From NCBI GenBank assembly GCA_902800945.1, contig CADCFX010000004.1:1-50803 (forward strand): DNA of 50,803 bases. Reading direction: 5' to 3'. The notes below the pieces were generated by a model. It was given only the letters and a program-made list of their open reading frames with translations. It had not been told where the DNA came from and searched no databases. The position numbers and the translations under genes were made by a program. This stretch comes from an uncultured Erysipelotrichaceae bacterium (lineage in GTDB: Bacteria; Bacillota_I; Bacilli_A; RF39; UBA660). Below are positions 1-7,813 of the stretch, piece after piece (position 1 is the stretch's first letter; the number at the start of each line of letters is the position of its first letter).

Positions 1-77
1 GTATACATTTTTACCTTTCCCTCTTCGTAGGGAATAAACTCTTCTATTTTTCTTGTTAATGTATTATATAATTTCAT
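1..77 (-). CDS. cysS: Cysteinyl-tRNA synthetase, N-terminal fragment (runs off the window)
   Basis: Only the first 25 codons are in the window. They read MKLYNTLTRKIEEFIPYEEG and then KVKMYT, the characteristic N terminus of bacterial CysS (the family continues with the zinc-binding VCGPTVY motif, outside the window). The enzyme charges tRNA-Cys with cysteine in the cytoplasm. The ATG at 77 follows AGAGGATAAAA, a suitable ribosome binding site. Upstream is a ~100-nt leader holding a short ORF with two adjacent Cys codons, annotated separately; the leader is too short for a T-box. Identification rests on the N terminus alone but that segment is distinctive. Confidence 0.85.
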   Translation of the reverse strand, partial: MKLYNTLTRKIEEFIPYEEGKVKMY

Positions 78-107
78 TTTTATCCTCTTTCTATTATTGT
101 TTTTTTA

Positions 108-158
108 TTATGAAAGACAACATCGTTTAGAAAGAAATAATTCCTGTATATTAAGCAT
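108..158 (-). CDS. Putative cysteine-codon leader peptide of cysS
   Basis: A 16-codon ORF reading MLNIQELFLSKRCCLS, ended by TAA TAA. Its ATG at 158 is preceded by AAGGGGATGATACA, a strong ribosome binding site, and it lies about 20 nt after the predicted transcription start. Codons 13-14 are tandem TGT TGT (117-122), 40 nt before the cysS start. The stretch UUUCUUUCU in codons 8-10, and alternatively UCUUUC in codons 14-16, can pair with AGAAAGAGG just before and within the cysS ribosome binding site. This fits translational control in which a ribosome stalled at Cys codons frees cysS translation. The ORF and pairings are seen; the mechanism is inferred. Confidence 0.6.
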   Translation of the reverse strand: MLNIQELFLSKRCCLS

Positions 159-183
159 TGTATCATCCCCTTAAATTAGGTAT

Positions 184-211
184 ATTATACTATATTATGA
201 GGTAAGTTAAA
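184..211 (-). promoter_or_regulatory. Promoter of the cysS leader
   Basis: Minus-strand -10 TATAAT (184-189) with a weak -35 TTTAAC (206-211) at 16-bp spacing. The predicted start near 177 gives a ~100-nt leader before cysS. Confidence 0.55.
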
Positions 212-6519: not shown

Positions 6520-6596
6520 TGGTCGGGAAGACAGGATTCGAACCTGCGACCCCTAGTTCCCAAAACTAGTGCACTACCAAGCTGTGCTACTTCCCG
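6520..6596 (-). tRNA. tRNA-Pro (TGG)
   Basis: 77-nt cloverleaf. Acceptor CGGGAAG/CTTCCCG, anticodon loop TTTGGGA, T loop GGTTCGAATCC, encoded CCA. Last gene of the minus-strand tRNA array. Confidence 0.95.
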
Positions 6597-6602
6597 ATAT
6601 AA

Positions 6603-6679
6603 TGGTGCGCCCAAAGGGAGTCGAACCCCTAACCTTTTGATCCGTAGTCAAACGCTCTATCCAATTGAGCTATGAGCGC
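6603..6679 (-). tRNA. tRNA-Arg (ACG)
   Basis: 77-nt cloverleaf. Acceptor GCGCTCA/TGGGCGC, anticodon loop CTACGGA, encoded CCA. Confidence 0.95.
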
Positions 6680-6738
6680 AATAACAACCAGCGCTATTAT
6701 ATATATAAAGTTCATGGATATGAACTATTTATTAAGAA

Positions 6739-6814
6739 TGGTGACCCGCTGGGGATTCGAACCCCAGACCCTTTGATTAAAAGTCAAATGCTCTACCGAC
6801 TGAGCTAGCGGATC
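6739..6814 (-). tRNA. tRNA-Lys (TTT)
   Basis: 76-nt cloverleaf. Acceptor GATCCGC/GCGGGTC, anticodon loop CTTTTAA, encoded CCA. Confidence 0.95.
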
Positions 6815-6819
6815 AAGAA

Positions 6820-6895
6820 TGGCTGCCTTGGATGGACTCGAACCATCGGAATGTCAGAGTCAAAGTCTGATGCCTTACCACTTGGCTACAAGGCA
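6820..6895 (-). tRNA. tRNA-Gln (TTG)
   Basis: 76-nt cloverleaf. Acceptor TGCCTTG/CAAGGCA, anticodon loop CTTTGAC, encoded CCA. Confidence 0.95.
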
Positions 6896-6903
6896 ATCAA
6901 AAG

Positions 6904-6987
6904 TGGTGGGAGGACATGGATTTGAACCATGGAACCCGAAGGAACAGATTTACAGTCTGCCGCGTTTGACCACTTCGCTATCCTCCC
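6904..6987 (-). tRNA. tRNA-Tyr (GTA)
   Basis: 84 nt with the long variable arm of class II tRNAs. Acceptor GGGAGGA/TCCTCCC, anticodon loop CTGTAAA, encoded CCA. Confidence 0.95.
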
Positions 6988-6995
6988 GAAAAAAA

Positions 6996-7071
6996 TGGTG
7001 CCGACTGAGGGAGTCGAACCCCCAACCTACTGATTACAAGTCAGTTGCGCTGCCAGTTACGCTAAGTCGGC
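6996..7071 (-). tRNA. tRNA-Thr (TGT)
   Basis: 76-nt cloverleaf. Acceptor GCCGACT/AGTCGGC, anticodon loop CTTGTAA, encoded CCA. Confidence 0.95.
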
Positions 7072-7082
7072 AAAAAAATAAA

Positions 7083-7159
7083 TGGTGGGCGATATAGGAC
7101 TCGAACCTATGACCCCCTGCTTGTAAGGCAGGTGCTCTAACCAACTGAGCTAATCGCCC
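7083..7159 (-). tRNA. tRNA-Val (TAC)
   Basis: 77-nt cloverleaf. Acceptor GGGCGAT/ATCGCCC, anticodon loop CTTACAA, encoded CCA. First gene behind the internal promoter at 7179-7207. Confidence 0.95.
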
Positions 7160-7178
7160 ATTGCGATTGATCCCAATT

Positions 7179-7207
7179 AATATAACAAGTAAATCATTAA
7201 TTGTCAA
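7179..7207 (-). promoter_or_regulatory. Internal promoter for the distal seven tRNAs
   Basis: Perfect -35 TTGACA (7202-7207), 17-bp spacer, -10 TATATT (7179-7184), 20 bp before tRNA-Val. It is embedded in an imperfect inverted repeat (7160-7220). Confidence 0.8.
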
Positions 7208-7235
7208 TCTTTTACGCAATTATCAAAAAAATAAA

Positions 7236-7311
<76 letters not shown>

Positions 7312-7316
7312 AATAA

Positions 7317-7393
7317 TGGCGGTCCGTACGGGATTCGAACCCGTGATCTTCTGCGTGACAGGCAGACGTCATAGGCCTCTAGACTAACGGACC
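7317..7393 (-). tRNA. tRNA-Asp (GTC)
   Basis: 77-nt cloverleaf. Acceptor GGTCCGT/ACGGACC, anticodon loop CTGTCAC, encoded CCA. Confidence 0.95.
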
Positions 7394-7394
7394 A

Positions 7395-7471
<77 letters not shown>

Positions 7472-7479
7472 ATAAATAA

Positions 7480-7572
7480 TGGCGGAGGGAAAGGGATTCG
7501 AACCCCTGCGCCGCTTGCACGACCTTTCGGTTTTCAAGACCGACCCCTTCAACCGGACTTGGGTATCCCTCC
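7480..7572 (-). tRNA. tRNA-Ser (TGA)
   Basis: 93 nt with a long variable arm. Acceptor GGAGGGA/TCCCTCC, anticodon loop CTTGAAA, encoded CCA. First gene of the array. Confidence 0.95.
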
Positions 7573-7584
7573 AGCGACAAACCG

Positions 7585-7614
7585 ATTATACCATAATATA
7601 AAAAAAGATGTCAA
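7585..7614 (-). promoter_or_regulatory. Promoter of the minus-strand tRNA array
   Basis: Consensus -35 TTGACA (7609-7614) and -10 TATAAT (7585-7590), 18-bp spacer, 12 bp before tRNA-Ser. Confidence 0.85.
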
Positions 7615-7671
7615 CAATATCTTTAATATTTAGTCTAATTTTTTCTATTATTACTTTTTATTTAAAAAAAC

Positions 7672-7700
7672 TTGCATTGCTCTTAAAAATGCGATATACT
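7672..7700 (+). promoter_or_regulatory. Promoter of tRNA-Leu
   Basis: -35 TTGCAT (7672-7677), 17-bp spacer, -10 TATACT (7695-7700); divergent from the tRNA-Ser promoter. Confidence 0.75.
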
Positions 7701-7724
7701 TTAGAAGTCTTAGCGAAGACAAAT

Positions 7725-7813
7725 GCCCAAGTGGCGGAACAGGTAGACGCACAGGACTTAAAATCCTGCGAGATTCAACCCTCGTGCCGGTTCAAGTCCG
7801 GCCTTGGGCACCA
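7725..7813 (+). tRNA. tRNA-Leu (TAA)
   Basis: 89-nt class II tRNA. Acceptor GCCCAAG/CTTGGGC, anticodon loop CTTAAAA, long variable arm, encoded CCA. The only plus-strand tRNA here. Confidence 0.95.

Follow-up and report, generated by a model that had tools for sequence, protein, structure and literature searches.

The cysS gene at one end of the window (the whole 50,803-nucleotide stretch of DNA analysed here, from an uncultured Erysipelotrichaceae bacterium) is preceded by a short upstream open reading frame (uORF) that probably serves as a translational attenuator in cis, sensing Cys-tRNA(Cys). Comparison of sequences shows the uORF, its distance from a promoter, an Arg(CGA)-Cys(TGT) core and how far this core lies from cysS; sequestration and release of the cysS Shine-Dalgarno (SD) site come from folding predictions. 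The charging of tRNA(Cys) as the signal, and the direction of control, are suggested by the geometry and by the downstream gene, which encodes the synthetase for the amino acid at the proposed stall. In the proposed mechanism, the cysS mRNA would begin about 20 nt before the uORF. With plentiful Cys-tRNA(Cys), ribosomes would complete the uORF and leave, the uORF would pair with the cysS SD region in a hairpin, and CysRS synthesis would stay low. Under a shortage of Cys-tRNA(Cys), the ribosome would pause at the Cys codon, its P site occupied by Arg(CGA); it would then cover the 5' arm of the hairpin, and the freed SD would allow more CysRS to be made. The parts of the locus are as follows.

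1 to 77, minus strand: start of cysS (CysRS), ATG at 77-75; the first 25 codons are in the window and the rest on contig C30.
84 to 93, minus strand: 3' arm of the predicted sequestering hairpin, UAGAAAGAGG, containing the cysS SD AAAGAGG (90-84), from the sequence, RNAalifold and predicted accessibility.
108 to 158, minus strand: leader uORF of 16 codons plus TAA, MLNIQELFLSKRCCLS, ATG at 158-156, stop TAA at 110-108.
117 to 122, minus strand: tandem Cys codons TGT TGT (codons 13-14), the proposed stall site.
123 to 125, minus strand: near-invariant Arg codon CGA, adjoining the putative regulatory Cys codon on its 5' side.
128 to 137, minus strand: 5' arm of the predicted sequestering hairpin, UUUCUUUCUA, in uORF codons 8-11, from the RNAalifold consensus of four congeners.
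166 to 172, minus strand: SD of the uORF, AAGGGGA, from the sequence; well-placed SD-like sites precede nearly all uORFs of the relatives.
184 to 189, minus strand: predicted -10 element TATAAT of the cysS leader promoter, from the sequence; its position about 30 nt upstream is conserved.

A second TAA (107-105) directly follows the uORF stop, which lies 30 nt from the cysS ATG, and UUUCUUUCU (137-129) is complementary to AGAAAGA within the cysS ribosome binding site AGAAAGAGG (92-84). The first-pass annotation had described the 16-codon uORF with its SD, the TGT TGT pair at codons 13-14, the double stop and the pairing; all of these are present, the minus strand being the one thing it omitted. 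Contig C30 of the same genome shares an exact 99-nt overlap with the window end and carries a complete CysRS ORF of 465 aa. The window's assembly has an estimated contamination of 7.9%, and all genomes compared are metagenome-assembled (MAGs). Elsewhere in the window, a cluster of 12 tRNA genes occupies 6520-7813, 11 of them on the minus strand and tRNA-Leu on the plus strand.

CysRS relatives were gathered from the genus, family and order, together with a collection of named genomes, and the cysS upstream regions were then read. The 236 distinct regions became 214 once distant Lachnospiraceae-type loci and short contig ends were set aside; the relatives are Bacilli/Tenericutes MAGs, and the order-level matches among those listed all belong to one family. 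Leaders, meaning short ORFs that have an SD-like site and place a Cys codon 41-59 nt upstream of cysS, were present in 24 of the 214 regions, all in the same order (probably RF39, family UBA660), and the window's uORF thus has counterparts at 23 other cysS loci (examples of leader peptides are MFIKIVSFLSIRCCCC, MLRILISFLSKRCCFSN, MNNIVVLYLSKRCCI, MLTKRCCTYFCINNKI, MVKRCCIYIT, MYIKRCCRF, MYTKRC, MKYNYFRCLCHS, MNLYPLRCLSFIRHE and MKIHYQKINYSTRCQK). Lack of conservation of the uORF and its Cys codons had been named beforehand as grounds for giving up the first-pass reading; the uORF and its first Cys codon turned out to be conserved. No such leader was found in 40 cysS upstream regions from other families of the class Bacilli. 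All 24 leaders fall among the 74 loci with at least 100 nt to the previous same-strand gene, and none among the other 140 (Fisher P = 5e-13); this restriction is partly a matter of simple room, and it also fits a leader tied to cysS's own promoter.

The distribution within the family is patchy, and 50 loci with at least 100 nt of free upstream space (e.g., L027, L033, L043, L044 and L076) have no leader, as would be the case if the uORF had arisen by chance or were functionless inherited sequence. We give this explanation next to no credence. Across the 74 loci, 23 uORFs with Cys-Cys or Arg-Cys were observed against 0.03 expected from dinucleotide-shuffled upstream regions searched by the same rules, the gap and SD thresholds having been set by hand once the first leaders had been inspected and applied identically to the shuffles. 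The core is moreover unchanged amid diverged surroundings, and loci with a leader have their promoter shifted upstream. Of the 24 leader loci, 23 have a -10-like element 18-50 nt (mean 31) upstream of the uORF; within that range an exact TATAAT occurs in 18 of the 24, compared with 5.6% of random windows, and the window's own TATAAT lies 31 nt upstream of the uORF start. Where there is free upstream space but no leader, the -10-like element closest to cysS mostly lies 21-38 nt before that gene, implying a very short 5' UTR there; the leader is thus a module between promoter and gene. Since the predicted TATAAT precedes the uORF, a transcript start downstream of 158, the other condition under which the first-pass annotation would have been refuted, is unlikely.

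Comparison of the leaders indicates where selection acts. Their peptides differ in length (6-25 aa) and in the position of Cys, and the uORF stop lies at varying distances from the cysS start (-14 to +45 nt), while the distance from Cys to the cysS start stays at 41-59 nt. This variable stop and constant Cys distance speak against a uORF that, without any sensing, couples or improves cysS initiation through reinitiation, a role that would also leave the conservation of Arg-Cys unexplained; we therefore regard reinitiation as highly improbable, even though a role of short leader ORFs in increasing downstream translation has been proposed (PMC4833913) and one uORF overlaps the cysS start. That uORF (L048, 1437-1514, MLTKRCCTYLCINNKNIKECRNEII) crosses the cysS SD and stops 14 nt inside cysS; in L049, its near-twin, the uORF ends before the cysS start. 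The first Cys codon is TGT in 24 of 24 leaders. Arg precedes Cys in 23 of 24, encoded by CGA in 22 of these 23 and by CGG once, and a second Cys codon (Cys-Cys) is present in 15 of the 23 leaders other than the window's, such that the Arg codon, which the first-pass annotation had not remarked on, is the better conserved of the two neighbours. In genes, CGA accounts for 27 of 442 Arg codons in the window and 52 of 742 in relatives (6-7%), and for none of 10 Arg codons in Arg-Cys pairs; no simple binomial P value is claimed for the CGA excess because the leaders are not all mutually independent.

The residue before this Arg is Lys or Arg in 18 of 24 leaders. A basic Lys-Arg stretch before Cys might also cause nascent-peptide arrest, with free cysteine or some other small molecule as the trigger in place of tRNA charging; besides the frequency of these basic residues, the predicted fold is compatible with it, as a ribosome halted at codons 11-15 for any reason would open the SD. 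In some leaders, however, Cys comes after only 4-5 codons (MVKRCC, MYTKRC), leaving little peptide for sensing in the tunnel, and selection on the peptide would not fix CGA over AGA or CGT. Arrest of this kind is very unlikely in our view. That CGATGT is kept at the nucleotide level in the coding frame suggests that decoding, and not the peptide alone, matters.

The tRNA-Arg anticodons of the window's own genome are ACG, CCG and TCT, so CGA should be decoded by the ACG (inosine) tRNA. A tentative idea, which we would not favour over its negation, is that CGA acts as an inherent brake: a P-site tRNA-Arg(ICG), held by a poor inosine-adenine wobble pair, would weaken decoding of the next codon, and a mild fall in Cys-tRNA(Cys) could then stall the ribosome at UGU. 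Were this true, the codon pair, and not a run of codons, would set the sensitivity of the attenuator. In yeast, elongation is destabilised by CGA in the P site (PMC6301793). In B. subtilis, a 4xCGA-lacZ construct was translated normally with lacZ output not reduced (PMC10454642), which speaks against a strong general CGA effect in Bacillota and does not support slow CGA decoding as a general property. Other explanations of the core were considered and rejected. The internal ATG of CGATGT as the start of an overlapping ORF would presumably be served equally well by AGATGT, and the overlapping ORFs share no conserved length. TadA editing of the A in ACGA in the mRNA does not fit several leaders, in which that base is G or T. 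For mimicry of, or pairing with, tRNA-Cys, no stretch matching or complementary to CGATGTTGC was found in the tRNA-Cys of six relatives. A regulon marked by CGATGTTGY was not supported, with 10 copies in the window's own genome against 27 for the reversed control; among these copies the sole leader is that of cysS, and the other occurrence of AAACGATGTTGY runs antisense within a ribosomal-protein gene. The 31 tRNA matches of the window's assembly include no tRNA-Cys, probably because the assembly is incomplete.

Folding predictions are consistent with control at the cysS SD. In the window, the mean unpaired probability of the SD rises from 0.14 in the free leader to 0.96 once a ribosome has stalled at codon 13. 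When the ribosome is moved along the window leader, the SD is predicted to open only with the A site at codons 11-15 and to have closed again once the stop codon is reached, as a switch must do if it is to answer a wait for Cys and not termination. Against controls in which the uORF and spacer were shuffled, the 24 leaders show a lower unpaired probability of the SD when free (mean 0.35 vs 0.54; P = 0.0003) and a larger gain when a ribosome footprint covers the first Cys codon (0.35 vs 0.065; P = 0.0002). Different clades use different pairings for the predicted release. In 4 of the 24 leaders (L026, L028, L067 and L068), a Cys stall leaves the predicted accessibility unraised or lowered, and in L175 and L196 it is barely altered. 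Overall, the free window fold is no more stable than its shuffles (z -0.31). RNAalifold on four congeners joins uORF codons 8-11 to the cysS SD in a hairpin with one two-sided pair change; this covariation is weak evidence, as the sole two-sided pair is broken in the window itself, and the predicted accessibilities of the 24 leaders are the stronger evidence. The features of a translational attenuator present here are a conserved, apparently translatable uORF with Cys codons and an SD, a downstream SD predicted to be sequestered in the free leader, and its predicted release by a stalled ribosome in the window and most leaders. The first-pass annotation had called for folding with and without the footprint of a stalled ribosome, and the outcome, an SD paired unless a ribosome is at codons 11-15, fits its logic. 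Its proposal that a stall frees cysS translation thus agrees with the models, while the link from that stall to a shortage of Cys-tRNA is one that we, too, infer.

A stalled ribosome might instead act on transcription, by keeping a leader terminator, whether intrinsic or Rho-dependent, from working. This logic has been proposed for uORFC-8-2, a cysS leader of Rhodobacterales (PMC8632094), and a role for Rho has been put forward where Cys leaders of Actinobacteria lack a hairpin terminator (PMC1262725). In positions 1-1000 of the window, no terminator-like site was found; the 3' arm of the predicted hairpin is formed by the cysS SD itself and leads into A-rich sequence and the start codon, not into a U run. 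Without a terminator, attenuation of transcription is less likely, and we consider it very improbable beside translational attenuation at the SD.

The history of CysRS bears on the translational attenuator both ways. Mapped on the CysRS tree, in its favour, the presence of a leader requires 8 changes, of which well-supported branches force at least 4, implying that CGA was either retained through deep divergence or arose more than once. The leader of L006 (G006:C43) is closely like the window's, yet its CysRS belongs to another clade, and at L016 (G013:C11) an Arg(CGA)-Cys leader precedes a CysRS of only 36% identity. At both loci the leader may have been retained while the synthetase beneath it was swapped. 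These cases show that leader and synthetase are separable in evolution, which counts against our preferred reading. One genus holds two CysRS types of 36-42% mutual identity (L007-L016 vs the window and L004-L006), and most genomes of that genus have the other type, without a leader.

In Bacillota, the charging of tRNA(Cys) would be expected to be sensed for cysS by a T-box riboswitch (RF00230). The Rfam model has no match in the window, and none of the 17 T-box matches in its genome is on C4 or C30; these lie on contigs C11, C43, C7, C34, C19 and others, and relatives have 7-17 each. The core T-box motif was found in one of 112 cysS upstream regions, that of a distant locus. The organism therefore appears to use T-boxes, though not for cysS. 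The first-pass annotation was right that the leader is too short for a T-box; its premise that cysS is usually under one does not describe the norm in this order. A lineage rich in T-boxes can thus still place a synthetase gene under a peptide-based switch that hides the cysS start site. The shortest leader, MYTKRC, has 6 codons and is among the smallest amino-acid sensors that could be proposed. Leaders that are otherwise unrelated share a near-invariant CGA before UGU; this is a clean natural experiment in how codon pairs act, and it makes testable whether a P-site wobble pair tunes the sensitivity of the bacterial ribosome at a hungry codon.

Among published systems, the one nearest to this leader is uORFC-8-2, in which tandem Cys codons precede cysS (positions 14-15, compared with 13-14 of 16 in the window) and sensing of Cys-tRNA(Cys) by ribosome stalling, with a terminator, has been proposed (PMC8632094). 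It belongs to Alphaproteobacteria, its intrinsic terminator makes it transcriptional, and UGC dominates. The window's leader shares the tandem Cys codons, but it lies outside Rhodobacterales, the SD itself is predicted to be paired, and its first Cys codon, like that of the other 23 leaders, is UGU after a near-invariant CGA; with no 3' intrinsic terminator, it is not a member of uORFC-8-2. Nor does it resemble a trp-type transcription attenuator with terminator and antiterminator hairpins, as positions 1-1000 of the window hold no terminator-like site. Cys-rich leader peptides have been described in Actinobacteria before the Mycobacterium cys operon and Bifidobacterium cbs (PMC1262725). These are likewise short ORFs with Cys codons before Cys-related genes and with no clear hairpin terminator; they differ in serving cysteine biosynthesis operons, in having Cys runs near the stop and in belonging to another phylum. 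No report of a cysS leader peptide in the window's lineage was found in the openly licensed literature searched. Translational attenuators of the erm type, such as the ermC leader, have a free leader hairpin that hides the downstream SD and is opened by a ribosome stalled on the uORF, the stall arising through a drug and the nascent peptide. In the leader described here a hungry Cys codon would be the cause, and the regulated gene is a synthetase. The cysS leader is therefore best described as joining the action of an erm-type translational attenuator to the sensing logic of an amino-acid attenuator. While this type of switch is known, a version with an invariant CGA in bacteria that use T-boxes seems undescribed; what is new is the lineage, the predicted sequestration of the SD in place of a terminator, and the invariant CGA-UGU pair.
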